Shown: positions 1-30,775 of the stretch, in pieces
How the letters are laid out: each line of letters begins with the position of its first letter
Position numbering within the stretch: position 1 is the first letter of the stretch
Notes under the pieces: generated by a model
What the model saw: the letters and a program-made list of their open reading frames with translations, nothing else
Databases searched by the model: none
What the model was told of the DNA's origin: nothing
Virus record (IMG/VR): IMGVR_UViG_3300025000_000286
Span: 1 to 33,960 of that record
Length of the DNA: 33,960 nt
From: a virus
Strand: one strand, 5' to 3'
Position numbers and translations under genes: made by a program

Positions 1-380
1 CGGCAGGGTTGCCCGAGGTGGCCTCGGCCGAGTGGAAGCGGATCGCCCCGATCCTGAGCAAGTACCGGCTGCTCTCCGATCTCGACCTGACCGCCCTGGA
101 GATGTACTGCCGGGTGTATGCCCGCTGGCTCGATGCCGAGAAAAAGCTCGAATGGAAAGAGTCGCTGGTGTTCCGCACCACGACCGGCTACGAGACCCAG
201 TCCGCCTACCTGAACATCATCAACCAGTGCTTGAAGCAGATGCAATCCCTGATGGCCGAGTTCGGCATGACCCCGGCCACCAGGGAGCGCCTGAAGTCTC
301 TGGCCAACCAGCCGCAGCAGCTGGGCCTGTTCGATGATTTCGTTTCTCGTAAGACCGGGAGCAATGCGGTAAATGGCTGA
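1..380 (+). CDS. terS: Phage terminase small subunit, P27 family, 3' part
   Basis: This is the DNA-recognition subunit of the packaging motor, which binds the packaging site and recruits the large subunit. The segment carries the recognisable P27 pattern: AEWKRIAP, then LSDLDLTALEMYC, then VYARW, and near the end LKQMQSLMAEFGMTPATRERL. It is predicted to be mostly helical. A TTG at 9 could serve as a start, but it has no clear ribosome site, and the frame is already open from base 1 and from the other end of the window. The true start is most likely ATG 33888. The stop overlaps the start of the large subunit by 8 bases, which fits translational coupling. Confidence 0.88.
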   Translation, partial: AGLPEVASAEWKRIAPILSKYRLLSDLDLTALEMYCRVYARWLDAEKKLEWKESLVFRTTTGYETQSAYLNIINQCLKQMQSLMAEFGMTPATRERLKSLANQPQQLGLFDDFVSRKTGSNAVNG

Positions 381-2043
381 TTGTCCCGCCATGGAATACG
401 CCGCCGGCGTCCTGGCCGGTGAGATCGTCGCATGCAAGTGGGTGCGCCTGGCTGTCGAGCGGCACATGCGCGATCTCGAAACGGCCGAAGAGCGCGGTCT
501 CTATTTCGACGAAAACGCCGCCTGGCACATCATCGATTTCTTCCAGTTCACCCGCCACCTCAAGGGAGAGTGGGCAGGGCTGCCGATCGACCTGGAGCCG
601 TGGCAGCAGTTCTTCCTGTGGGTGGCCTTCGGCTGGATGCGGGCCGACGGCACCCGCCGCTTCCGCTTCGCCTATCTCGAGATCGCCAGAAAGAACGGCA
701 AGACCACCAAGGCCGCCGGCGTCGGTCTGTACCTCGCCTTCGCCGACGGCGAGATGGGCGCCGAGGTCTACGCCTGCGCCACCAAGAAGGACCAGGCGAA
801 GATCTGTCACGGCGCGGCGGCAAGCATGGTCAAGCTCTCCCCGCACCTGGGTGCCCACCTGGAGGTACTGAACAACAACATCAGCAACCCGCAGACGCTG
901 TCCAAGTTCGAGCCGCTCGGCCGTGACTCCGACTCGACCGACGGCCTCAACCCATCCGGCGCCGTCATGGACGAGCTGCACGCCTGGAAGACACGCGATC
1001 TCTGGGACGTTATCGAGACCGGTACCGGATCCCGCACCCAACCGATGATCATCGCCATCACCACGGCCGGCTACAACCGCCACTCTATCTGCTGGGAAAA
1101 GCACGAATACCTGTGCAAGATCCTCTCCAGGGTGATCGAGGACGACAGCTACTTCGGCATGATCTACACCCTGGATGAAGGCGACAATATTGACGACGAG
1201 TCCTGCTGGATCAAGGCCAACCCGAACCTCGGCATCTCGGTGAAGATCGACGACCTGCGCGGCGCCATCAAGCGGGCCAAGGAAAGCCCGGCGGCAATGA
1301 ACTCGGTGCTACGGCTGCGCCTCAACCAGTGGACCCAGTCGGAAACCAGGTGGCTCAATATCGACAGGTGGCGGCAGTGCGGCAACGCGATCGAGCCCTC
1401 CAGCCTGCGCGGCCGGCGCTGCTATGGCGGTCTGGATCTCTCCTCGAGCATCGATATCTCGGCCTGGATCCTGGTCTTTCCGCCGGTCGAAGACGGCGAG
1501 CCATACAAGGCGCTGTGCCGTTTCTTCGTACCCGAGGACAACATGCGCGAGCGCTCCCGCAAGGACCGGGTGCCGTATGATGTCTGGTGCCATGCGGGAT
1601 TGATCACCGACACCCCGGGCAACGTCATCGATTACGCCTGGATCATCGACCAGGTCCAGAAAGACGCCAAGGAATTCGACCTGCAGGAGATCGCTTTCGA
1701 CCGCTGGGGCGCGACGCTGATCTACCAGCAGCTGTCCGACCTCGGCATGCAGGTGGTGGAATTCGGCCAGGGCTTCGCCTCGATGAGCCCGCCGTCGAAG
1801 GAACTGGAGAAGCTGATCCTGGCCGGCAAGATCTGTCACGGCGGTAATCCGGTGCTGACCTGGATGGCGGACAACGTGGTGGTGGTCGAGGATCCATCCG
1901 GCAACATCAAGCCGGCAAAGAATCGATCGACGGAAAAGATAGACGGCATCGTTGCCTTGATCATGGCCCTTGACCGGGCGCTCCATGGCGAATCGAACAA
2001 CAGGGTTTCACGCTACGAACGAGAGGGGATCAGATCGTTATGA
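373..2043 (+). CDS. terL: Phage terminase large subunit (HK97-like, Terminase_1 family)
   Basis: This is the ATPase and nuclease of the DNA packaging motor, which docks on the portal and cuts concatemeric DNA. The 556-residue length is typical. A deviant Walker A (ARKNGKT, residues 105-111) follows the LEPWQQFFL adenine-side motif, and Walker B is AVMDE (197-201). A coupling-like segment IAITTAGYN sits near 228-235. The C-terminal RNase H-like nuclease shows acidic positions in GGLDLS (352-357), FDRWGA (442-447) and KIDGIVAL (522-529). The gene overlaps both neighbours. The HNH gene just upstream of the small subunit fits a cos-type packaging system, in which HNH and terminase act together, but no cos site was identified. 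Confidence 0.97.
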   Translation: MADCPAMEYAAGVLAGEIVACKWVRLAVERHMRDLETAEERGLYFDENAAWHIIDFFQFTRHLKGEWAGLPIDLEPWQQFFLWVAFGWMRADGTRRFRFAYLEIARKNGKTTKAAGVGLYLAFADGEMGAEVYACATKKDQAKICHGAAASMVKLSPHLGAHLEVLNNNISNPQTLSKFEPLGRDSDSTDGLNPSGAVMDELHAWKTRDLWDVIETGTGSRTQPMIIAITTAGYNRHSICWEKHEYLCKILSRVIEDDSYFGMIYTLDEGDNIDDESCWIKANPNLGISVKIDDLRGAIKRAKESPAAMNSVLRLRLNQWTQSETRWLNIDRWRQCGNAIEPSSLRGRRCYGGLDLSSSIDISAWILVFPPVEDGEPYKALCRFFVPEDNMRERSRKDRVPYDVWCHAGLITDTPGNVIDYAWIIDQVQKDAKEFDLQEIAFDRWGATLIYQQLSDLGMQVVEFGQGFASMSPPSKELEKLILAGKICHGGNPVLTWMADNVVVVEDPSGNIKPAKNRSTEKIDGIVALIMALDRALHGESNNRVSRYEREGIRSL

Positions 2044-2228
2044 GCAAGGATAAGTGGATGGAAGTGTCATCGGTGGCGCGGCGGCTGAACATCTCCGCGG
2101 CGACCGTCTACCGGCTGATCAAGCTGGGCAGCCTGCGCAGCACCAAGATGGGCGTGTCCCGCTGCCTGCGGGTGAGCGAGGCGAGCATCAAGTCTTTCGA
2201 GAAGATGCGGGCCGAGGTGGTGGAATGA
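2040..2228 (+). CDS. Small helix-turn-helix DNA-binding protein (excisionase/MerR-like, HTH_17)
   Basis: A 62-residue protein in which WMEVSSVARRLNISAATV followed by YRLIKLGSLRSTKMG matches the winged-helix fold of small excisionase-like proteins: a 'two-helix plus wing' arrangement, with basic residues in the recognition helix and wing. Its start overlaps the large terminase stop (ATGA). Such proteins bind DNA as recombination directionality factors or as transcription regulators. No integrase was recognised in this genome, so a regulatory role or a structural role near the packaging site is at least as likely as excision. It is the first gene of the cargo island between terminase and portal. 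Confidence 0.75.
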   Translation: MSKDKWMEVSSVARRLNISAATVYRLIKLGSLRSTKMGVSRCLRVSEASIKSFEKMRAEVVE

Positions 2229-3271
2229 CCATCCGAACCGGGGGAGGATGGAAACGCAAACCGACGCGGCTGTTTTCCGGCCCCTGCCCGGTCACCGGTG
2301 GGCGGCCGACGACGATGCTGCGGCGGACGTTTAACCTGATGTGCATCCGCCACCAGGAGGATTTTGACAGCTCCTGCCGGTTTATCTGCAAGGGGCGGTG
2401 GCCGCAGGCTGGGCTGGAATTGATTGATGACGTGAAAAATTTTGCATCCGAGGAGGATACCATGGCAGTACCATCGGCAATACAGGCAGGGATATGCGGG
2501 CTGTGCGGAGCGAAGAAAAAAGTGCGGAAGGTGCGGGAAAAAACCTGCTGCGCGACCTGCGAGCATATCTGGCGAGCGGCCCATGTTTCCTCGGGGCTGC
2601 TGGTCGATGCGCTCAACCAGGCGAGGGGGGAGGGATATCTGGCGGAGAAGGTTGGCGGCGGGGATCAGGTCGAGGTAAAGCGCCGGCTGTATGCGATGGA
2701 GCAAACGTATGAGAATATGCGGCTGGCCCTTGGGTGTCAAGGCGAGGAGGAGGCCCTTGAATCCGTCATCCGGTTGGTCAAAGAGCGCGATGCCGCCCTC
2801 GATGATCTGCAGCAGATCCGGTCCGCTGTTGGCCTCGAGGTCGGCAGCCCGCTGGTCGAGTATATCGAGGGCCTGGTCGGCGTCAAGGATGATGTTACCC
2901 GACGATACCTTGCCGTAAACGATGTGATCGAGAATGTGCGCGAGATGCTCGGCCTTGATGCGGAAGAGGCGATTATCGAGGAGGTGCATCAGTTGCTGCG
3001 CAATGGGAAAAAGGCTACCGATATCTGGTTCGAGACTGCCGAAATCATGGGGATCGACTGCGTCAATGCCGATCAGATACCGATCAGGGCCAGGGAGTTG
3101 ATGCAAGAGCTATCGGACTTATCGAACTTGAAGGCCGGGACAATGGTGTATCTCGAAGGAAAGGAGGGCTGCACTGAATCCCGCGATACAGCCCTCCTTG
3201 ATCTCGCTATCGATGTCCTGGCCGGCCGGATCACCGGCATCGATGCGGCGCGGATCAGCGCGTTGAGGTGA
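2225..3271 (+). CDS. Unknown protein with cysteine pairs and four ~34-residue helical repeats
   Basis: From ATG 2225 (ATGA overlap with the HTH gene, GAGGTGG upstream) the product is 348 residues. A second in-frame ATG at 2462 has a stronger GAGGAGG ribosome site and would give 269 residues, so two forms or a misjudged start are possible. Residues 91-112 contain CGLC and CCATC pairs that look like a zinc ribbon. From about residue 155 to the end there are four related units of about 34 residues, each with a hydrophobic-Gly-hydrophobic core (ALGC, AVGL, MLGL, IMGI) followed by an acidic helix. No enzyme motif is visible. The role is unknown; the layout suggests a nucleic-acid or protein binding scaffold translated together with its neighbours. 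Confidence 0.7.
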   Translation: MTIRTGGGWKRKPTRLFSGPCPVTGGRPTTMLRRTFNLMCIRHQEDFDSSCRFICKGRWPQAGLELIDDVKNFASEEDTMAVPSAIQAGICGLCGAKKKVRKVREKTCCATCEHIWRAAHVSSGLLVDALNQARGEGYLAEKVGGGDQVEVKRRLYAMEQTYENMRLALGCQGEEEALESVIRLVKERDAALDDLQQIRSAVGLEVGSPLVEYIEGLVGVKDDVTRRYLAVNDVIENVREMLGLDAEEAIIEEVHQLLRNGKKATDIWFETAEIMGIDCVNADQIPIRARELMQELSDLSNLKAGTMVYLEGKEGCTESRDTALLDLAIDVLAGRITGIDAARISALR

Positions 3272-3276
3272 TGAGG

Positions 3277-4353
3277 ATGACCCAGCCCAGCCTGTACGTG
3301 GATACACCGGTAACCGAAGACGTCACCTCGCCCGAATCGATCGCATCGATAGTCGCGGCCATCAGACAGCGTCTCCGCGCCGTCAACATCGTCTCGTTCT
3401 CCGGCGGCAAGGATAGCACTGTGACCCTGAAGCTGGTCCTCGAGGCCATGCGCGGCCTGCCGCACAAGCTCTATATCATCACCGCCGACACCGGGGTCGA
3501 GATCCCTTATTTTCAGCAGTACGTCGACCAGGTGCGGGGAGAGCTGCAGCGCTATGTCACGGCCATGCGGATCAATGCCGAGGTGGTGACGGTACGGCCG
3601 CCGCCCCATGTTTCCTTCTGGGTGTCGATATTGGGCAAGGGATACCCGGCGGCGCACATGGGTTTCCGCTGGTGCACTGGCGTGTTGAAGATCGAGCCGA
3701 TCACCAGATATATCGAGACCTTGATCACGGGTGACGATTATGCCGTTTTTGTCGGGGTGCGCACGGCGGAAAGCAAGGAGCGGGCGCGGATCTACCTGCA
3801 AAAAGACTACAAGCCAAACCACTATGCGCCGGTGCTCGACTGGACCGCCCATGATATCTGGACCTATCTGCTGGCGACGGATTGCCCCTGGGGAGATCAC
3901 AGCAAGCTGATCGAGGTGTACCGCTACTCATCGGACGAGTGCGTCTATGGCGAGAAGCAGGGTGTCTGCATCGGCAATGCCCGTTATGGCTGCTGGCCCT
4001 GTCCGCTGCAGAAGGTAGGGCAGCTGAACATGATCGCCTACCACGTCAACGACGAGCGCTATCTGCTCCTGCGGAATTTCAAGACGACACTCTCCGGCAT
4101 GGCCAACGACAGATCACTGCGCTCAGTGATCCGCCGCAACGGCGAAACCGGTGCCGGACCGTTCCTGGTGAAAATCCGCCAGCGCCTGTTTGCCGATCTC
4201 AAGAAATTGGAAAAGGAGACCGGCTGGACATTGATCTCGGGAGCGGAGGAGATCGAGATCCGGCGCTACTGGCAGGAGGAAGCGGAGATCCATAATATCT
4301 CGAACCAGCAGCGGCCGCTGCTATGGGACCTTTGCGGCGAGGTGACGGCATGA
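3277..4353 (+). CDS. PP-loop sulfur-transfer protein, PAPS reductase/DndC-like
   Basis: A PP-loop ATP pyrophosphatase-fold protein of 358 residues from ATG 3277, which lies 8 bases after GAGG; GTG 3268 and ATG 3271 are possible but badly spaced. SGGKDS at 42-47 is the pyrophosphate-binding loop. RWCTGVLK (131-138), GVRTAES (160-166) and the APVLDWTAHDIWTYL segment (184-198) are typical of the PAPS reductase/DndC branch. C133 together with C231, C239 and C242 (GNARYGCWPC) resembles the cysteine set described for the iron-sulfur cluster of DndC, the enzyme that puts sulfur on the DNA backbone in phosphorothioation. No DndA, DndD or DndE homologue is seen. Sulfate assimilation, tRNA thiolation or nucleic-acid modification remain open; DNA sulfur chemistry is the most suggestive. 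Confidence 0.85.
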   Translation: MTQPSLYVDTPVTEDVTSPESIASIVAAIRQRLRAVNIVSFSGGKDSTVTLKLVLEAMRGLPHKLYIITADTGVEIPYFQQYVDQVRGELQRYVTAMRINAEVVTVRPPPHVSFWVSILGKGYPAAHMGFRWCTGVLKIEPITRYIETLITGDDYAVFVGVRTAESKERARIYLQKDYKPNHYAPVLDWTAHDIWTYLLATDCPWGDHSKLIEVYRYSSDECVYGEKQGVCIGNARYGCWPCPLQKVGQLNMIAYHVNDERYLLLRNFKTTLSGMANDRSLRSVIRRNGETGAGPFLVKIRQRLFADLKKLEKETGWTLISGAEEIEIRRYWQEEAEIHNISNQQRPLLWDLCGEVTA

Positions 4354-4625
4354 CCAGGGCAGCCGGGTATGTCATCGCCTGGGCCTCCGGGCATCAGCCG
4401 CCTCGCACGGTGTATTTCCGGGGCGGCAAGAAAACCTGGGGCGCAACCTATGAGCGGGATGAGGCGGCCAGGTTTAGAACCAGGACGGCAGCCAGGCGGA
4501 TGTGGGAATCAAAGCACAGGTTCCCGGAGAACTATCATGACGAATGGCAGAGCGGCGTCCTGCGGGTAGAGCCGACAACGGCGCCGATGCTGCCCTTCTG
4601 CCATGCTCATCGGTCTGAGTCTTAA
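4350..4625 (+). CDS. Small basic hypothetical protein
   Basis: A 91-residue protein starting at ATG 4350, which overlaps the stop of the PP-loop gene (ATGA) and has GAGGTGA just upstream. It contains a YVIAWASG beta-like start, a central RGGKKTWGATYERDEA segment rich in Arg and Lys, and a HRFPENYHDEW segment. It resembles small phage proteins that simply re-state a value or bind nucleic acid, but no family could be named. It is sandwiched between the PP-loop and radical SAM genes and is almost certainly co-transcribed with them, so a helper role is possible but unproven. Confidence 0.6.
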   Translation: MTRAAGYVIAWASGHQPPRTVYFRGGKKTWGATYERDEAARFRTRTAARRMWESKHRFPENYHDEWQSGVLRVEPTTAPMLPFCHAHRSES

Positions 4626-4646
4626 AATCTTCTTTTGAGGTGATGT

Positions 4647-5453
4647 ATGGAAAATTTCGACCAGGACCGCCAGGGCACCGGTACCGCCGAGTGGGCCGAG
4701 GTGACGGAAAATATCTGCAGGGGCTGCGCCAATGATTGCCTGTACTGCTATGCAGCCCACAGCGCCAACCGTTTCAAGCTGCGGCCGCGCTCGGAGTGGC
4801 ATGTCGAGGAGTTGACCAAGCGGGCGGAGATGCGGTCCTATCCAGCCCGGGGCGGGGTGGTCATGTTCCCGTCCTCGCACGATATCACGCTCTTCAATCT
4901 CGAGGCCTATGTCCGGGTCGCCCGGTTGATCCTGGCCGCCGGTAACCGCCTGCTGATCGTCAGCAAGCCGCGACTGGAGTGCGTGGAAAGGATGATCAAG
5001 GAGTTTGAGCCATACCGGAAGCAGATTCTTTTCCGCTTTACCATGGGCACGGTGCAGCGCAATGTCTCGGCTTTATGGGAACCAAGCGCTCCCTCTCCCC
5101 AAGAGCGAAGGGGATGTCTGGAGCTGGCATACAGCAACGGTTTTTCAACCTCTGTTTCTATCGAGCCGATGCTTGAAGGCTACCAGATGACGGAGATCCT
5201 GATCGAATGGGTTCGGCCGTTTGTCTCGCAAACCATTTGGATAGGGAAGATGAACAAGCCTCAGCTGAGGGTCCCGAAAGAATACTCGTACCTGGTCGAC
5301 GCCATTCTCAAACAGCAGAGTGATGACCAAATCATGAGCCTCTACGAGTGGTTCAAGGATGACCCGCAAATCCGCTGGAAGGACAGCATCAAGGTCGTGC
5401 TGGAGCGGTGGCGGCTGTTCGAGGCGAAAGAGGCGAATGACCTGGCGGAATAA
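4647..5453 (+). CDS. Radical SAM protein
   Basis: A 268-residue protein with CRGCANDCLYCY at residues 24-35, which contains the radical SAM CxxxCxxC signature (C27, C31, C34) for a 4Fe-4S cluster that cleaves S-adenosylmethionine. C24 is an extra cysteine directly before it. Downstream, VVMFPSSHD, LLIVSKPR, LFRFTMGT and the TSVSIEPMLEG segment fit the strands of the (beta/alpha)6 partial barrel. The start at ATG 4647 has GAGG six bases upstream. The C-terminus ends in a charged helix. The substrate cannot be read from the sequence. It lies in the same transcription unit as the DndC-like protein, so the two may act on the same nucleic-acid or small-molecule target; this is inference. Confidence 0.88.
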   Translation: MENFDQDRQGTGTAEWAEVTENICRGCANDCLYCYAAHSANRFKLRPRSEWHVEELTKRAEMRSYPARGGVVMFPSSHDITLFNLEAYVRVARLILAAGNRLLIVSKPRLECVERMIKEFEPYRKQILFRFTMGTVQRNVSALWEPSAPSPQERRGCLELAYSNGFSTSVSIEPMLEGYQMTEILIEWVRPFVSQTIWIGKMNKPQLRVPKEYSYLVDAILKQQSDDQIMSLYEWFKDDPQIRWKDSIKVVLERWRLFEAKEANDLAE

Positions 5454-5492: not shown

Positions 5493-5888
5493 ATGAAAAA
5501 GAAGACATACGTGAAATACCCGAAGATCTTGACGGTCACCTGCGTCACCTGCGGGGCGGTGATCGATGTGCAGCTCAATGAGCCGAGCAAGCACCGGAAG
5601 CGGTGGTATTGCTCGGAGAAGTGCGAGCGCGAGTATCTGGCCAGGGCTCGGTGTCATGCCTTGGGATCGAGGAGGCAGGCCGGCAAGTTCACGGCGGTTG
5701 AGGGGAAGTATGAGCCCCTGCGTTCGAAGATCCTGGGGGAGCGTCCTGCTGCCTGCGATGCCCCGAAAAAGCGGGATGACGAGGTTGGTGCCAAGGTCGC
5801 CAGGGATGCAGAGCTGAAGCGGGGCGATGCGGAATACTGGGCGGCGCTGCGGCGGGCTAAGGGGATAACCGCGGCGGCGGTATCCTGA
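5493..5888 (+). CDS. Small zinc-binding protein (CxxC...CxxxC)
   Basis: A 131-residue protein with an N-terminal metal site: C17 and C20 (VTCVTCGAV), then WYCSEKCEREY with C40 and C44. This matches the general layout of small phage zinc fingers and of HNH-associated zinc ribbons. The rest is charged and rich in Lys, Arg, Glu and Ala and is probably helical. The ribosome site is the purine-rich GGGGTAAGGGG just before ATG 5493. No catalytic motif was found. It may bind nucleic acid. It is the sixth gene of the island between terminase and portal. Confidence 0.7.
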   Translation: MKKKTYVKYPKILTVTCVTCGAVIDVQLNEPSKHRKRWYCSEKCEREYLARARCHALGSRRQAGKFTAVEGKYEPLRSKILGERPAACDAPKKRDDEVGAKVARDAELKRGDAEYWAALRRAKGITAAAVS

Positions 5889-5913: not shown

Positions 5914-6207
5914 GTGATAATTGACAGAAAATTCAAATTTGTGGCAGTGAATCCGTGCAACGGCAAACATTACACCCAGGAAGATGCAGTGGTCTTTTGC
6001 GCGAAAGATAAGGCGTTGATCCCTGCCCTTGAAAGATATGCCGAGGAATGCAGGGTCATCGGCTCAAATCCTGAACACATCGAAAGCGTGCTGCTCCTGG
6101 TTGGCCGGGTGAAAGATTACCAGGCGGCATTCGGGGCAAGGGTTCCGGACACTGTTGGTGACTGCGAGCTTGCCCGGTGTATTGATGGATATGGTGTAGA
6201 ACGCTAA
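5914..6207 (+). CDS. Conserved phage hypothetical protein, ~97 residues
   Basis: It starts at GTG 5914 with GAGGTGA just upstream. The pattern NPCNGKHYTQEDAVVFCAKDKALIPALERY, then EECRVIGSNPEHIESVLLLVGRV, and a closing VPDTVG segment looks like a small helical phage protein found near morphogenesis genes in other phages, but this is recalled only loosely and the function is unknown. It is the last gene before the intrinsic terminator at 6233, so it closes the cargo island transcription unit. Confidence 0.65.
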   Translation: MIIDRKFKFVAVNPCNGKHYTQEDAVVFCAKDKALIPALERYAEECRVIGSNPEHIESVLLLVGRVKDYQAAFGARVPDTVGDCELARCIDGYGVER

Positions 6208-6232
6208 TCCTAGTGGTCTATTGACACCCAGT

Positions 6233-6270
6233 CCCGGCCATCTCCTTCGAGGCGGCCGGGCTTTCTTTTT
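6233..6270 (+). terminator. Rho-independent terminator closing the cargo island
   Basis: CCCGGCC (6233-6239) and GGCCGGG (6254-6260) form a perfect 7-bp stem with a 14-base loop, followed by CTTTCTTTTT. It lies 25 bases after the last island gene and 246 bases before the portal gene, so the head genes probably have a separate promoter or are reached by antitermination. Confidence 0.85.
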
Positions 6271-6515: not shown

Positions 6516-8630
6516 ATGGGCATCTTATCATCAATCTTCGGGAGATCTGGCCATGTAACTGAACGGGCGACCAGGTCGGCGACATCCGCCGACCTGGATC
6601 TCGGGCCGGCCGTCGATGTCCTCGAACGCAAGGGATCGACCGAGATTCTCACCAGCCGGGACCTGGCCATGCTCATGCAGGGTTCGGCCAGCGCGGCCGG
6701 GGTCGGGGTCAGCCCGAACACGGCCATGCGCTATGTCACGGTCTGGGCCTGCATCCGCCTGTTGGCCGAGTCCATTGCCCAGATGCCGGTGCACCTGTAC
6801 CGCAAACTGCCGGACGGCAGTAGGCAGCGGATCAGCGATATCGCCCTGGCGGAGATCATCTCCTCGGCCCCCAACAGCTGGCAATCGCCCTTCGAGTATT
6901 TCGAGTTCCTGGTCGCGGCCCTCTGCCTGCGCGGCAATCACTACGCCTATATCAACCGCCTCGGCTCCGGCGCCATCGCCGAGCTGATCCCGCTGCTGCC
7001 GCAATCGGTTACCGTGCTGCGCGACGGCTACGACCTCAGTTACCGGGTGCGCTTCGAGAACGGCAGCACCGACACCCTGCCGCAGGAAAAGATCCATCAC
7101 GTCCGGGGCCTGACCCTGGACGGCTTTGTCGGCGTCTCGCCGATCGCCTACCAGCGCAACGCCATCGGCCTGGGCATGTCCGCCGAAAACCACGGATCTT
7201 ATCTGTTTAAGAACGGGGCGATGCCGGCAGGCACCCTGAGCATGCCGTCGGAACTGTCCGACGAGGCCTATGAGCGGATCAGGAAATCATGGAGGGAGAC
7301 CCATAGCGCCGACAAGCAGGGCGGTGTCGCGGTGCTCGAGGGCGGCCTCAAGTTCGACAAGATCTCGATGAGCAACGAGGATGCCCAGTACCTCGAGGTC
7401 CGGCAGTTCCAGCGCACCGAGATCTGCTCGATCTACCGGGTGCCGCCGCACATGATCGGCGACCTGAGCAAATCGAGTTTTTCGAACATCACCCAGCAGT
7501 CGCTGGAGATGGTCAAGTACACCTTCCTGCCGATCTGCCGAAGGATCGAGGCGGCTATCAAGCGGGATCTGCTGACCGAGCAGGAACGCCGGCGCGGTTT
7601 GTATGTCGAGTTCCTGGTCGACGGCCTGGAGCGGGCCGACCTCGAACAGCGCTACCGCTCCTATAACGTCGGGATCATGAGCGGCATCCTCAGCCCGAAC
7701 GAATGCCGGGCCATGGAAAACCGCAATCCCCGCCCCGGCGGCGACCTCTACCTGGCGCCGCTGAACATGGTCGACTCGAGCGAAGGCATGCCGAAGGAAG
7801 GCGGTGATCCTGAAGAACAGGATGAAGACGGCGGCAAGTCCTTCAAAAGCAAATGCATCGGAACGGCTGTTCCCGCCCCCCTGGGCAAGGCGCTGATCAC
7901 CAAAGGCGTCCTTGCCCGGGAACAGCTCCGGGAATCCTTCGCTCCGCGCTTCAAGGTTCTGGCAGCGGCCCTGGTCGCCTACGAGACCGGCGAGCTGCGC
8001 CAGGCCATGGCCGACAACAACGGCGAGATCGGGCCGGGGTTCTCCGGCAGCATGACCGAGATCTACCGCCGGCTGCCGGACTATATCCGCAACCAGTTCC
8101 TCGGGCTGATGCGGGAATACGCGGTGGCGGTGCGCAACGCGGCCCTGGAGGAGATCGACAGCGAGGTGGAGATCGATTCCAACGAGCTGGCCAAATATGT
8201 CGAGGAGACCATGGCGGCCTTCAGCACCCGGCATATCTCCTCGAGCGAGGGGCAGCTGGCGGCCCTGATCAACGACACGGTCCTGGAGGATCTGCCGGCG
8301 GCGATCGAGCAGCGGCTGTCCGAGTGGGATGCAACCCGGGCGGCGAAGATCGCCAGCCGTGAGCCGATTCAGCAGGAGAGCGCGGTGTCGCGCTGGGTGT
8401 GGCTGGCCGCCGGTGTCACCCTGCTGCAGTGGCAGCGACGCGGCAACAAGTCCTGCCCGTTCTGCACGGCGCTGAACGGCAAGATCGTCGGCATCAACGA
8501 GCCCTTTGTCGAGGCCGGCGACTTCACCCCGGAAGGTCACGAGGCCTCGCCGCTGAAGGTGCGCGGGCCGAAACTGCACGCCCCGATCCACCAGGGCTGC
8601 GTGTGCGTCATAACCCCAGTGCGAGGATAG
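6516..8630 (+). CDS. Portal protein (HK97 type) fused to a C-terminal MuF-like head morphogenesis domain
   Basis: The portal forms the dodecameric ring at one capsid vertex through which DNA passes. Residues about 60-430 match the HK97/lambda-type portal family: AMRYVTVWACIRLLAESIAQ, then HLYRK near the start, PYEY-like SPFEYFEF, the EKIHHVRGL segment, and RVPPHMIGDLSKSSFSN. At 704 residues it is much longer than a plain portal (about 400-450). The extra C-terminal third ends in a SPP1 gp7/MuF-like cysteine region: SCPFCTALNGKIVG (about residue 645) and IHQGCVCVITP (about residue 690). The two functions, normally encoded by two genes, appear joined. The protease gene follows after 3 bases. 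Confidence 0.92.
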   Translation: MGILSSIFGRSGHVTERATRSATSADLDLGPAVDVLERKGSTEILTSRDLAMLMQGSASAAGVGVSPNTAMRYVTVWACIRLLAESIAQMPVHLYRKLPDGSRQRISDIALAEIISSAPNSWQSPFEYFEFLVAALCLRGNHYAYINRLGSGAIAELIPLLPQSVTVLRDGYDLSYRVRFENGSTDTLPQEKIHHVRGLTLDGFVGVSPIAYQRNAIGLGMSAENHGSYLFKNGAMPAGTLSMPSELSDEAYERIRKSWRETHSADKQGGVAVLEGGLKFDKISMSNEDAQYLEVRQFQRTEICSIYRVPPHMIGDLSKSSFSNITQQSLEMVKYTFLPICRRIEAAIKRDLLTEQERRRGLYVEFLVDGLERADLEQRYRSYNVGIMSGILSPNECRAMENRNPRPGGDLYLAPLNMVDSSEGMPKEGGDPEEQDEDGGKSFKSKCIGTAVPAPLGKALITKGVLAREQLRESFAPRFKVLAAALVAYETGELRQAMADNNGEIGPGFSGSMTEIYRRLPDYIRNQFLGLMREYAVAVRNAALEEIDSEVEIDSNELAKYVEETMAAFSTRHISSSEGQLAALINDTVLEDLPAAIEQRLSEWDATRAAKIASREPIQQESAVSRWVWLAAGVTLLQWQRRGNKSCPFCTALNGKIVGINEPFVEAGDFTPEGHEASPLKVRGPKLHAPIHQGCVCVITPVRG

Positions 8631-19549: not shown

Positions 19550-19926
19550 TTATTAAATCCCTGCCGTTATCACATGTACAATCTGCCAAAATAATATTGG
19601 ATGTTGCTATTGATGCTGGCCTGACAACAGATGAGTTGCGGCGAAAGTTGGTGGCCAGGATCGACCAGGTTGCGGCTGAGGTCGCTGATGGTAATGAGCA
19701 GCTCCCCAGGGCCGTGGAAAGAGGGAAAAGACGGCCCGACAATATCACCACCTGCTCGGTGTGCGGGAAAGCAGCAGTGATCGTGCCGGTAAATACCGAC
19801 AGGAAAACCAGGATCAGTGGTGATTATACCCACGGCATCCAGTGCCAGAACCGACCGGCCACCGACCAGCCGTGGCGGGATGGGATGTGCGGCCATACCG
19901 AGTATGTCGTGTGGAGGGATAGATAG
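19543..19926 (+). CDS. Small protein with zinc-ribbon-like cysteines
   Basis: A 127-residue protein with TTCSVCGKAAVIVPV (CxxC) and later CQNRP and GMCGHTEYVVWRD cysteines that could complete a metal site. The start overlaps the previous gene. The first 60 bases are AT-rich while the rest returns to high GC, marking another mosaic boundary. No function is recognised. Its stop TAG overlaps the GTG start of the large tail protein. Confidence 0.6.
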   Translation: MLIIKSLPLSHVQSAKIILDVAIDAGLTTDELRRKLVARIDQVAAEVADGNEQLPRAVERGKRRPDNITTCSVCGKAAVIVPVNTDRKTRISGDYTHGIQCQNRPATDQPWRDGMCGHTEYVVWRDR

Positions 19927-22439
19927 TGTCCACCACATACATTAACGGCCAGCCATGGCGGCAGCAATATCCCAACAACGAGGAGATTTTAGCCAATATT
20001 ACTGGTTGGGCAGCTGGCCCCAGTTTGCCTTTGGCTTTTCGTTCCTCTCCGGCAATAGTCACCAAAAACAGAGTGTATCTGCTGGGTGGCTATACAACAG
20101 TCCCTGTTGCAACAGTCTATACTGCTCCAATCAACGAAGACGGGACGCTGGGCACCTGGGCGACTGGCACCAGTTTGCCTGGCGTGTTCAATGATGCGTC
20201 TTCAATCGTCACGAAAAATAGAGTCTATCTGTTTGCCGGAGTTGATGCATCGGGTGTTTCAGCAACGGTCTATACCGCCCCGATCAACGAGGACGGTACG
20301 CTGGGAACCTGGACGATTGGCCCCAGTCTGCCTGGAATATTACGGTCCTCCGCGCCGATTGTTACAAAAAATAGAGTCTATCTGTTGGGTGGCTACACGA
20401 CGGCCTCCGTAGCAACAGTCTATACTGCTCCAATCAACGAAGACGGGACGCTGGGCACCTGGGCAGTTGGAACAAGTTTGCCTGGAATATTGCGGTCTTC
20501 TGCGGCGATCGTCACAAAAAATAGAGTATATCTGTTGGGCGGTCTTGTTTCAGCGGCCGTGGCAACGGTCTATACCGCCCCGATCAACGAGGATGGGACT
20601 CTAGGAGCATGGACAACGGGGCCCAGCCTACCTGGAGTTCTTCATTCCTCCTCGCAGATTGTTACAAAAAATAGAGTCTATCTGTTGGGTGGCTACACGA
20701 CGGCCTCCGTAGCAACAGTCTATACTGCTCCAATCAACGAAGACGGGACGCTGGGCACCTGGGCAGTTGGAACAAGTTTGCCTGGAAATTTCAGTTACTC
20801 CTCGGTGATTGTGACCTCCAGTAAAGTGTATCTATTAGCTGGTGTTGTTTCAGCAGCCGTCTCAACTGTCTATGTCGCAACATTTCCTGGCGGAAAAAAC
20901 GATTATAGCGCGGACAGTTATATCACGATTGTTGGGCAATGGCTCAACGCCGCAGTCTCCCAGCCCTACTCGATGTTCTCCGATGCCACCCAGGTCGCAA
21001 GCGAGCAGCCCTACGGCATCGCCGACGGCCTTGATGAGGTCGCCCTGCTCCAGCTCTACTCGATGGTCATGGAGGTCTGGCTGACCCAGCATTACGGCGA
21101 TGTGCCGCTGATCGGCAAGGCCCTGGTCCAGCCCTATGGCGCGGCCTCGGTGCTCAACAAGTCCCTGCTGCAGCGCTGGGGTCATGCCCCGGAGCTGGCG
21201 GTCAGCCTCGAGCAGCCATGGTCCATGCCGGATCTGCTGCAGGCGGTGAGCGAGCAGCCCTACGGCATCGTCGCCGAGGTCCTCGAGGTCACCTGTGAGC
21301 AGCTCTATAATATCAACGAGCTGACCGGCCTGTTCGCCAGCCTGATCCAGCCCTATGCCCTGGCCGGCGAAGCGGCACGGCTCTACCAGTTCGACACCCG
21401 GCTCTATATCAATGGCGAGCGCATCCCCTATCACTCGCTGGAGTGGCAGCAGGTCGATTCCGAGTGCGCCTGGTCGTGCGATTTCGCGATCAAGGATCAG
21501 GCGGTCGCGATGAAATGCGTCGAGGGCGCGGCGATCATGATCACCAGCTGCGGCGACACCTGGCTGCTCCGCTGCTATGACGGCTGGTTCGAGGATCGCC
21601 GCCATGGTTCGACGGTCTATCGGGTATCCGGGTTCAGCCGGACCCGCGATCTCGATCTCGCCACGCCCCTGCTCGGCGATCTGCCCGGCGGCATGGCCTC
21701 GGCGCTGGTCGCGGACCTGGCGGCGCCGCACGGCATCACCGTCGATTGGCAGATGGCGGACGGCTATCTCGCCGCCGGCACGGTGACGGCCAACGACGAG
21801 ACGCCGCTGGCCGTGATCAGAGACATCGTCCATGACGCCCGCGGCATCATCCTCGCCACCATGGACGGCAACCTGCTGGTGGTGGCGGCCGAGGAAACCG
21901 CCATTCCGGACTGGCCGACGGTCGAACCGGCGGACACGATCATCGCCCGGCTGGAGCGGATCTCCACCAGCGAGCAGCGGGATGAGCAGAAGGGATACAA
22001 CCGCTTCATCGTCTCCGACCAGCTGGCCAGCGCCGGCGGATTCCGCTGGGAAGAGGTGGCGATCGACGGATCGACCAAGGAGGTCCGGCTGTTCGTCGTG
22101 CCGTTTGATCCCGCCAGGCAGTTCTATCTCGGCCATAGCGGCGGCACCGATGTCAGCATTGAACCGTTCGGCCTGCGCAGCCTGACGATCCCCGACGAGC
22201 AGGTCGAGTTCGTGGCCGGGGCCGGCAAGACCACCAAGCCGATCTACGGCGTCAGCGGCTACGCCTGGCAAAAGGCCGACCTGGGCCTGGTCATCCCGGC
22301 CGAAGACTGCCTGCTGACCGCCTCGACCCCCGGCTATTCCCTGCTTTCGATCACCTATCTGACCCAGTTCTACCGCTGGATTGTCCGCGATCCCAATATC
22401 GAGGATGTCCAGTTCATCTTCCATGAGGTGACGCCATGA
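19926..22439 (+). CDS. Large tail protein: kelch-like propeller + QPY repeats + hub-like domain
   Basis: An 837-residue protein starting at GTG 19926, with GGAGG nine bases upstream. Residues 27-325 contain six units of about 50 residues, each with SLPG, VTKNRVYLLGG and TVYTAPINEDGTLG elements, as expected for a six-bladed kelch-type beta-propeller. Residues about 338-485 hold about ten 14-residue units ending in Q-P-Y/W/L-G/S. Residues 490-837 contain RLYINGERIPYHSLEW and a long hub-like region resembling gp27/Mu gp44-type baseplate or tail-hub proteins, ending in FYRWIVRDPNIEDVQFIF. The propeller probably binds host surface sugar or protein, and the C-terminus anchors it to the tail tip. 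Domain assignments are by pattern only. Confidence 0.78.
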   Translation: MSTTYINGQPWRQQYPNNEEILANITGWAAGPSLPLAFRSSPAIVTKNRVYLLGGYTTVPVATVYTAPINEDGTLGTWATGTSLPGVFNDASSIVTKNRVYLFAGVDASGVSATVYTAPINEDGTLGTWTIGPSLPGILRSSAPIVTKNRVYLLGGYTTASVATVYTAPINEDGTLGTWAVGTSLPGILRSSAAIVTKNRVYLLGGLVSAAVATVYTAPINEDGTLGAWTTGPSLPGVLHSSSQIVTKNRVYLLGGYTTASVATVYTAPINEDGTLGTWAVGTSLPGNFSYSSVIVTSSKVYLLAGVVSAAVSTVYVATFPGGKNDYSADSYITIVGQWLNAAVSQPYSMFSDATQVASEQPYGIADGLDEVALLQLYSMVMEVWLTQHYGDVPLIGKALVQPYGAASVLNKSLLQRWGHAPELAVSLEQPWSMPDLLQAVSEQPYGIVAEVLEVTCEQLYNINELTGLFASLIQPYALAGEAARLYQFDTRLYINGERIPYHSLEWQQVDSECAWSCDFAIKDQAVAMKCVEGAAIMITSCGDTWLLRCYDGWFEDRRHGSTVYRVSGFSRTRDLDLATPLLGDLPGGMASALVADLAAPHGITVDWQMADGYLAAGTVTANDETPLAVIRDIVHDARGIILATMDGNLLVVAAEETAIPDWPTVEPADTIIARLERISTSEQRDEQKGYNRFIVSDQLASAGGFRWEEVAIDGSTKEVRLFVVPFDPARQFYLGHSGGTDVSIEPFGLRSLTIPDEQVEFVAGAGKTTKPIYGVSGYAWQKADLGLVIPAEDCLLTASTPGYSLLSITYLTQFYRWIVRDPNIEDVQFIFHEVTP
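20004..20900 (+). repeat. Six tandem ~150-base repeats encoding a propeller
   Basis: The six propeller units repeat with a period close to 150 bases. The strongest match is between bases 20357-20487 and 20657-20787, which are identical over 131 bases at a spacing of 300. Identical DNA, not just protein, implies a recent duplication or gene conversion of two blades. The region is more AT-rich than the flanking tail genes. Confidence 0.9.
20938..21390 (+). repeat. Degenerate ~42-base / 14-residue QPY repeat array
   Basis: About ten to eleven units of around 14 residues contain Gln-(Pro/Leu/His/Arg)-(Tyr/Trp)-(Gly/Ser) at their start, such as SQPYSM, SEQPYGI, VQPYGAA, EQPWSM and IQPYAL. The DNA is GC-rich and diverged, unlike the adjacent propeller repeats, so this array is old. 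It links the propeller to the hub domain. Confidence 0.8.
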
Positions 22440-27967: not shown

Positions 27968-28044
27968 GCGTACAAGGCTTTTTTCGGAAAATCTGAAAAA
28001 CGCGGATAATGCTTTGAATATATTGCTATATTTTTCTTGTACGC
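27968..28044. repeat. Distant inverted repeat GCGTACAAG / CTTGTACGC
   Basis: GCGTACAAG (27968-27976) and CTTGTACGC (28036-28044) match perfectly across 59 AT-rich bases that include the end of the repressor gene. It shares the GTACAAG core with the palindrome at 27801. Its function is unknown; a DNA-looping operator or recombination arm sites are possible. Confidence 0.5.
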
Positions 28045-28421
28045 ATGACGGTTATTTTTGCCTTCCTGGTCCTCCTGGTCAGGCTGATCCTGGCCTCGGT
28101 TTCCTGCCTGGCCTGCTGCTCTTTGGTTTTGCTTGCTTTTTTCCTGGTCGGTCCAGGTTCAATGGTCATAACGATTTTCTGCTCTGATTTGTATGTTTTC
28201 TGCTCTTCGTCACCAATCAGCATTTCCCCTGTGCCGGTAAGTAGAAATTTCCGGTTTATCTTAAATGCCAATTCAAGAGATCTGAGTACCGGTTCGCTAG
28301 GCACTAAATTTCTCCTTTCGATATCAGATACATATCCTCCAGTTATTCCAATTCTATTGGCAAAATCAGCCTGATTCAGGCCAAGGTGTTTTCTTATTTT
28401 TTTAAGATTTTCGCCTATCAT
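28026..28421 (-). CDS. XRE-family repressor (CI-like)
   Basis: A 131-residue protein with an N-terminal helix-turn-helix: ENLKKIRKHLGLNQADFANRIG, followed by ITGGYVSDIERRNLVPSEP. FLLTGTGEMLIGDEEQ is the usual end of short XRE repressors. The C-terminus is basic (KKASKTKEQQARQETEARISL) and has no LexA-like protease domain, so classical RecA-triggered self-cleavage is unlikely. It is the only confident - strand gene and is divergent from a Ner-like gene 48 bases away. It likely silences the early + strand genes. Confidence 0.88.
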   Translation of the reverse strand: MIGENLKKIRKHLGLNQADFANRIGITGGYVSDIERRNLVPSEPVLRSLELAFKINRKFLLTGTGEMLIGDEEQKTYKSEQKIVMTIEPGPTRKKASKTKEQQARQETEARISLTRRTRKAKITVMRTRKI

Positions 28422-30323: not shown

Positions 30324-30494
30324 ATGAGCATACAGTCAGGGGATTTTCAGTGCGTGCGGGTGGGTAAATACACGATCTGCCGTGGTCCTGATGAGAAAGG
30401 AATCTGGATTCAGGCGGAAGATGGCGATGGCGGGGAATTCTCCGAGGAGAGTTTTGAGGCCGTGGTCGATGTCTTTTACCGGGAAAACTTTTGA
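30324..30494 (+). CDS. Small hypothetical protein (56 residues)
   Basis: ATG 30324, right after the previous stop, with GGGAGGACGATGAG upstream. The product has a beta-like pattern (FQCVRVGKYTICRG, GIWIQAEDGDGG) and an acidic end. Below common size cut-offs but well placed and with a good ribosome site. Function unknown. Confidence 0.55.
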   Translation: MSIQSGDFQCVRVGKYTICRGPDEKGIWIQAEDGDGGEFSEESFEAVVDVFYRENF

Positions 30495-30523
30495 CGCCGA
30501 AACCGGCAATATCGAGGCGAACC

Positions 30524-30775
30524 ATGGCAGCAGGTATCGAACAGATCCTGATAGAGCGGTCGGCGGTGATGCGGACCAACGAGTTGTTGGCCGAATGCCC
30601 GCTCGGCTGCACCTGCTCGGAAAATATAACCGATCCGCTGCGGCTTCTGAGCTGCGGCTATTTTAACGGCACGATCAGCGATCAACAGGGTCTGCGAGTC
30701 GTGTGCGGGTACGAGGAACGATCGAGCTTTATCCAGTCTGGAGAAACGGCGCGGCCATGGGGGCCCGGCGCCTGA
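30524..30775 (+). CDS. Small cysteine-containing hypothetical protein
   Basis: An 83-residue protein from ATG 30524 (GAGG 6 bases upstream). AECPLGCTCSENI gives three closely spaced cysteines, with further ones at LLSCGYF and VVCGYE, so a metal site is possible. No family recognised. Confidence 0.55.
   Translation: MAAGIEQILIERSAVMRTNELLAECPLGCTCSENITDPLRLLSCGYFNGTISDQQGLRVVCGYEERSSFIQSGETARPWGPGA

Follow-up and report, generated by a model that had tools for sequence, protein, structure and literature searches.

A DndC-like PP-loop protein of a tailed phage, carried between terminase and portal genes with no detectable DndD

The window analysed here is the whole of a 33,960-base virus record (IMGVR_UViG_3300025000_000286), which comprises most or all of a tailed phage genome. 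Between its terminase and portal genes lie a PP-loop gene, a small gene and a radical S-adenosylmethionine (SAM) gene, and our main subject is the first of these, which encodes a DndC-like PP-loop iron-sulfur (Fe-S) protein of 360 amino acids (3271..4353, + strand). An alternative start of its reading frame at 3277 (358 amino acids) is as good as the ATG at 3271. Alignment places the PP-loop motif SGGKDS at residues 44-49 (3400..3417, +) and RWCT..LK at residues 133-140 (FRWCTGVLK). The original prediction, made from the sequence alone, had noted these two motifs together with C133, C231, C239 and C242 and had compared the set with the Fe-S site of DndC; all are present, the cysteines being numbered two higher from start 3271 (C135, C233, C241, C244). 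A fifth invariant cysteine, C224, which was absent from that account, completes the set of five found in DndC. C135 (3673..3675, +) is the counterpart of DndC Cys146, a cluster ligand, and C224, C233, C241 and C244 (3940..4002, +) are the counterparts of Cys262, Cys273, Cys280 and Cys283 (alignment; PMC12193691).

The family to which the protein belongs is rare and almost wholly phage-borne, comprising nine phage or prophage-like sequences. All five cysteines are invariant in an alignment of seven close relatives, and SGGKDS is replaced by SAGKDS or SFGKDS in two family members. Compared with their nearest relatives, both the PP-loop gene and the radical SAM gene are under purifying selection, nonsynonymous divergence (dN) being ~0.17-0.18 against a saturating synonymous divergence (dS) of ~1.5. 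A search of 297 genomes of one phylum found the PP-loop family in none of them, in a search that matched no control either; within the phylum of record L031, which carries a family member, it was found only in L031's own genome.

Profile searches demonstrated that the protein is closer to DndC than to the reductases of sulfate assimilation. The Pfam family PAPS_reduct (PF01507), named for 3'-phosphoadenosine 5'-phosphosulfate (PAPS) reductases, matched at 2e-19 with 70.7 bits against a gathering score of 22.5, and the DndC model TIGR03183 matched at 2e-50 with 171.9 bits over profile positions 17-364 of 447. Among curated models the best was PRK06850, an uncharacterised DndC relative (184.5 bits), followed by DndC, and the PADLOC model of DndC gave 186.6 bits. 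Models of CysH and of PAPS and adenosine 5'-phosphosulfate (APS) reductases reached only 23-42 bits against cut-offs of 154-254, so that the DndC models lead CysH by more than 120 bits. SspD of the Ssp system and BrxP of type 4 BREX, which were compared by models only, gave far weaker PADLOC matches than DndC (53 and 80 bits, respectively); BrxP has no DndC-type cysteine pair (PMC12839542), and the window holds no Ssp or BREX partner genes.

A tree of 51 proteins united the nine family members with seven DndC proteins, most of which have dndD neighbours, ten further phage proteins, an IncC plasmid protein and an Anaerobacillus protein in one group (100/99). E. coli CysH, on a long branch, the NinC-type proteins and archaeal or clostridial PAPS-like proteins fall outside it. 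Within this clade the family forms a branch of its own beside DndC and is not nested among the true DndC proteins. Its five cysteines align with DndC Cys146, 262, 273, 280 and 283, of which Cys146, 273, 280 and 283 are predicted to hold a [4Fe-4S] cluster (PMC12193691). A cysteine pair specific to DndC has been described (PMC10853773, PMC12839542); it is present in the window's family and missing from the other phage PP-loop proteins and from CysH.

The third line of evidence is the loop with which DndC is predicted to read DNA. In E. coli B7A this specificity loop, G135YPAPTRSFRW145, is predicted to enter the DNA major groove beside the cluster; mutating three core residues abolishes modification, and the triplet at its centre (TRS, RxK/R, TQN or NQT) tracks the modified sequence (PMC12193691). 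The window protein has a counterpart of equal length, GYPAAHMGFRW, at residues 124-134 (3640..3672, +; alignment), and its longer segment GKGYPAAHMGFRWC matches the DndC pattern GKGYPAPTRxFRWC without a gap. The triplet H129-M130-G131 (His-Met-Gly, HMG) is invariant in 9/9 family members, even in L116, the most divergent of them in other respects, and it belongs to none of the three known DndC classes. As an alignment result, HMG would be a new specificity class, and no other single feature hints as strongly as this loop at a DNA target.

Tree, cysteine set and loop agree, supporting the identification of the PP-loop protein as DndC-like rather than as a sulfate-assimilation reductase. The likeness to DndC extends over 334-359 residues at ~26-32% identity. 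The differences are equally consistent: the family has the HMG triplet, a score below the DndC cut-off, its own branch and a phage context, and it lacks the part that docks onto DndD. DndC binds DndD through residues 433-482 and the last helix (PMC12193691), and the family stops short of this region of the B7A protein, the TIGR03183 match ending at position 364 of 447. On these sequence comparisons, the family is a real, well-conserved sister branch of DndC that is carried by phages and lacks DndD.

The absence of Dnd partners, which had been part of the original prediction, held for dndD, for which no match above cut-off was detected in 13 records (the window and 12 related records), and is less certain for dndE: none was found, tblastn with three DndE proteins was also negative, and this is a weak test, since the dndE model matched no control genome either. 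The SMC-like ATPases that adjoin the PP-loop gene in L003 and L116 were considered as DndD stand-ins and rejected; they match RecF, SMC or LmuB, not DndD above cut-off, and are located in RecT recombination cassettes. The DndC proteins of Burkholderia and Aureimonas are also short, and there a separate small gene supplies the C-terminal part. The small gene that follows the PP-loop gene in the window (4350..4625, +; 91 amino acids), overlapping its stop codon (ATGA), was examined as such a split C-terminus and rejected: unlike the Burkholderia and Aureimonas small proteins, its product does not match TIGR03183 positions 383-445. A 40% relative of it precedes the PP-loop gene in L005 and a 53% relative occurs in L133, where the PP-loop gene is absent; a separate scan for relatives found none. 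It is best described as an independent phage gene.

Known Dnd DNA phosphorothioation requires dndC, dndD and dndE (PMC8569181). That docking part and partner are both lost is in keeping with a protein that would act without DndD, be it an enzyme or a decoy. We favour the enzyme, and give a probability of roughly 0.42 to the proposal that 3271-4353 encodes the catalytic core of a DndC-type enzyme which works without DndD and DndE and puts sulfur onto phage DNA, as a free-standing anti-restriction cargo. The host cysteine desulfurase IscS would give sulfur to a [4Fe-4S] cluster held by C135, C233, C241 and C244; the PP-loop would adenylate the target, a DNA phosphate or a base carbonyl; and sulfur would then replace oxygen on the phage DNA, in the backbone phosphate or in a base, at a position that the HMG loop would recognise. 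The likely gain for the phage would be protection of its DNA from host nucleases and restriction. A more specific form, in which this minimal phage DndC would thiolate DNA quite alone, with host-supplied sulfur, with no DndD or DndE and at a site set by His-Met-Gly, whether in backbone or base, amounts to a one-gene thiolation system; it is possible, and we put it forward only tentatively.

Several points weigh against the proposed DNA-modifying enzyme. The curated TIGR03183 cut-off is 290.4 bits, well above the 171.9 bits that the protein attains. The case for a DNA target rests mainly on a loop for which, even in DndC, contact with DNA is predicted, with mutants in support, and there are PP-loop Fe-S proteins whose substrates are tRNA or small molecules. 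The protein's AlphaFold model is of low quality (predicted local distance difference test score, pLDDT, 63), its best matches are general PP-ATPases, and the cluster cannot be placed in it. Finally, DndC on its own may not suffice to modify DNA, because all known Dnd phosphorothioation needs all three proteins.

One alternative joins the PP-loop protein to DNA methylation. Annotated phages in which a PP-loop gene stands beside a DNA methyltransferase gene include Dobby, phiC725A, RR1-A, Mae-JY29, Oslo (with NinC), Parlo, BKO1-TP3, BS-TP4, NatCom_991 and a Porphyromonas phage, and a Vibrio protein is annotated as a fusion of the two. Among phage members of the DndC superclade, 8/19 have a methyltransferase within two genes, vs 6.3% per gene in control loci (binomial ~1e-5), a count that allows L031, where two genes intervene, and is not corrected for descent, so that the cases are not independent. 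A C5-methyltransferase gene lies directly upstream of the PP-loop gene in L006, the C-terminal part of one lies upstream in L031, and an intact one lies 5.4 kb downstream in the L003 record. These three belong to one large C5 subfamily, common to RR1-A and phiC725A, which occurs in 4/10 PP-loop records and in 0/32 others (Fisher 0.002); in the sister phage L132 a C5-methyltransferase occupies the same slot as the window's cargo. The DndC-like protein and a C5-cytosine methyltransferase, the phage's own in relatives and the host's here, might thus make or alter a modified DNA base and not a backbone phosphorothioate.

The same surveys also speak against this. C5-methyltransferase is absent from the window record and from five other family records; within the family alone adjacency is 2/9 (p ~0.11), which is not significant; and C5-methyltransferases of any kind are not enriched (3/9 family records vs 7/34 controls). 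The L006 copy is frameshifted. The clade most strongly linked to methyltransferases has no DndC cysteine pair: the proteins of Dobby, phiC725A and RR1-A are likewise phage-borne members of the DndC superclade beside C5-methyltransferases, with no dndD or dndE, yet they differ from the window's family in lacking the pair, in their loop (PPPNNNT or PPSGAG) and in forming a sister branch. We therefore treat the methyltransferase association as a lead and not a result, and a base-modifying partnership as doubtful. In the literature searched, we found no account of DndC standing alone, nor of DndC-like phage proteins associated with methyltransferases.

Several observations were made on these methyltransferases and PP-loop proteins. 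Where PCQ is the usual motif, the large C5 subfamily has SPDC or a variant of it (SLEC, for example), and almost always there is a PP-loop gene on the same record; its members include L255:685-2382(-), L006:4051-4995, L118:3851-5884, L252:3301-5016 and L254:846-2933, as well as genes of L215 and L218. The frameshift in L006:4051-4995 apparently goes with an internal deletion, and the gene is either decayed or affected by an assembly fault. L031, a Nitrospirae contig, carries at 139-3867 the C-terminus of a C5-methyltransferase, a different radical SAM gene (C-x3-C-x2-C), a gene of 92 amino acids, the PP-loop gene, a small gene and an ASCH-like gene. The product of 2516-3955 in Vibrio phage 44E38.1 (L216) is annotated as a Dam methyltransferase that also has a PAPS-reductase domain. 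Its unfused relative in lambda-like phages, NinC, adjoins a methyltransferase gene in phage Oslo (L217). The IncC plasmid L232 encodes at 2818-5271, downstream of a cytosine methyltransferase, a DndC-like protein of 817 amino acids (TIGR03183 120 bits) that has the DndC cysteine pair and is apparently the same as one found in many enterobacterial plasmids.

The chemistry of DndC could also be turned on another substrate, the PP-loop enzyme thiolating tRNA, other RNA or a small molecule during infection. The same fold is found in the PP-loop Fe-S thiolases NcsA and LarE, and there are phages that alter tRNA. However, the protein matched no TtcA model at E 0.1 (the tree itself holding no TtcA sequence) and no ThiI model, TilS appeared only at 0.08, and the features conserved in the family are those specific to DndC, the DNA-reading loop among them. 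We regard an RNA or small-molecule target as unlikely, at about the same level as the methyltransferase partnership.

A DndC mimic without DndD docking might instead serve as a counter-defence decoy, occupying Dnd sites or draining sulfur from IscS and so blocking a host Dnd system. Retention of the DNA-reading loop and the cysteines, without the DndD interface, is what a dominant-negative protein would show. Against this, most members keep the catalytic PP-loop and every one of the cysteines unchanged, and purifying selection acts on the gene; moreover, the loop triplet is unlike that of all known DndC classes, and the decoy should therefore not occupy their sites. We judge such a role quite improbable.

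The original prediction had gone further and paired the PP-loop protein with the radical SAM enzyme in a two-enzyme system for sulfur or methylthio modification. The two genes are adjacent cargo and co-directional, and a radical SAM gene of another kind lies near the PP-loop gene of L031. The window's radical SAM family, however, was found in 0/13 PP-loop records searched, and conversely none of the radical SAM records contains the window's PP-loop family. L012/L131, the sister phage nearest to the window (terminase 87% and portal 74% identical), has the radical SAM gene in the same slot and no PP-loop gene. We surveyed 80 viral radical SAM loci, 69 of them with a called anchor, against 80 terminase loci as control. 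No neighbour recurs in more than 5 of the 69 anchored loci, indicating that there is no fixed neighbour. The radical SAM gene is not co-conserved with the PP-loop gene, an outcome named beforehand as one that would count against the pair; the other such outcome, nesting of the PP-loop protein among sulfate-assimilation reductases, was not observed. Of the radical SAM loci, 5/80 have a PP-loop gene of another kind within 5 kb, vs 0/80 terminase loci (p 0.03), and these genes belong to four unrelated kinds; at the level of whole records the figures are 5/23 vs 2/34 (p 0.09). We read these figures as cargo genes tending weakly to occupy a common zone and not as a sign of partnership. In L008 a PP-loop gene (6766-7290) follows the radical SAM gene by 1 kb; it looks truncated (174 amino acids, no CxxC) and is probably decaying.

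Tight packing and a shared terminator, which had been offered as further support for the pair, do not single out the two genes. The intrinsic terminator (6230..6262, +, with a U-rich tail to ~6270; RNA fold -21.8 kcal/mol, z -3.4) comes two genes past the radical SAM gene and closes the whole terminase-cargo cluster, not a PP-loop and radical SAM unit. Tight gene packing extends from the terminase to 6207 and is therefore no evidence for a common task. The radical SAM fold, moreover, is nearest to spore photoproduct lyase and SuiB and not to methylthiotransferases. The pairing is not supported, a joint system is very unlikely, and the radical SAM gene is an independent passenger; sulfur modification of nucleic acid survives as a reasonable prediction from the DndC likeness of the PP-loop protein alone. 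Least credible of all is the reading of the PP-loop protein as a PAPS or APS reductase enhancing sulfate assimilation in the host, for which the Pfam match and the annotation of phage relatives speak, and which the low CysH scores oppose together with E. coli CysH itself, lacking SGGKDS and the cysteines and lying outside the clade.

The radical SAM gene (4647..5453, +) encodes a protein of 268 amino acids, separate cargo whose predicted fold resembles spore photoproduct lyase (SPL) and SPASM proteins (profile and predicted structure). As first described, one small gene separates it from the PP-loop gene and it carries the CxxxCxxC cluster motif, C27xxxC31xxC34 (4725..4748, +), which is invariant in 20 relatives. 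Radical_SAM (PF04055) matched at 6e-7 with 30.1 bits against a cut-off of 29.5, and DUF5131 (PF07505) reached 15 bits, under its cut-off of 28.9. The predicted structure is good (pLDDT 92.5); structural comparison gave SuiB (Z 16.0) and SPL (4fhf, Z 15.2, 15% identity) with a root-mean-square deviation of 3.2 over 218 and 215 residues, respectively, Foldseek ranked SkfB and SPL on top, and many radical SAM enzymes lie within two or three Z units of the top matches. The likeness to SPL thus consists of the fold and the radical SAM motif, whereas SuiB has an equal Z and a PDB profile search gave no match, so the gene was not accepted as SPL by sequence. C112 is nearly invariant in the family and is at most a tentative candidate for the place of the SPL hydrogen donor, Cys140. 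In a chromosomal search 2/297 genomes carried this radical SAM family.

The genome begins with the small and large terminase subunits (9-2043). Portal-like, protease and capsid genes follow from 6516, together with a tail module and genes for lysis and replication, and the right end carries an HNH gene; a CI-like repressor gene (28026-28421) runs leftward. The upstream border of the cargo slot is the large terminase subunit (373..2043, +; TerL_nuclease 8.7e-60) and the downstream border is the portal-like protein (6516..8630, +; gene call and sister comparison). At the slot's start, close sisters keep the small helix-turn-helix gene found here (2040..2228, +; profile match and sister comparison). 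It is followed by a gene for a 348-amino-acid protein with a zinc-finger-like segment (2225..3271, +), which precedes the PP-loop gene in L001 too and occurs without it in L133. Past the radical SAM gene lie a zinc-ribbon-like protein of 131 amino acids (5493..5888, +), also in the slot of L133, and a protein of 97 amino acids (5914..6207, +), a relative of which adjoins the radical SAM gene in L008.

In related phages the slot measures from 36 to 5740 bases and its contents are very different: the radical SAM gene alone (L131), a C5-methyltransferase (L132), the relative of the window's 91-amino-acid small gene with relatives of the 348-amino-acid and zinc-ribbon-like proteins (L133), three methyltransferase-like genes (L151), and almost nothing in others. 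It follows that each of the window's cargo genes is best interpreted individually. The order terminase, PP-loop gene, portal recurs in an unrelated gut phage, Oscillospiraceae phage NatCom_11393 (L220, 914-4632). ASCH-domain-like genes (L007:4093-4566, L002:6089-6454, L031:3376-3867) adjoin both radical SAM and PP-loop genes in several phages and are common phage cargo. A small cysteine-bearing gene in the replication part of the window (30491-30775) has a similar counterpart in the sister phage, there between terminase and portal (L012:2434-2619), as if mobile. Elsewhere in the window, 19926-22439 encodes a tail-fibre-like protein in which several kelch-like repeats (TKNRVYLLGG...TVYTAPINEDGTLGTW) are nearly identical to one another, likely a recombining host-range region.

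For phage annotation, these results indicate that many phage 'PAPS reductases' are DndC-like or methyltransferase-linked proteins and not sulfur-assimilation genes. In the prevailing view, Dnd phosphorothioation needs DndC, DndD and DndE together; the family described here makes DNA modification by DndC alone directly testable, and it provides a small enzyme that may recognise a new target sequence.

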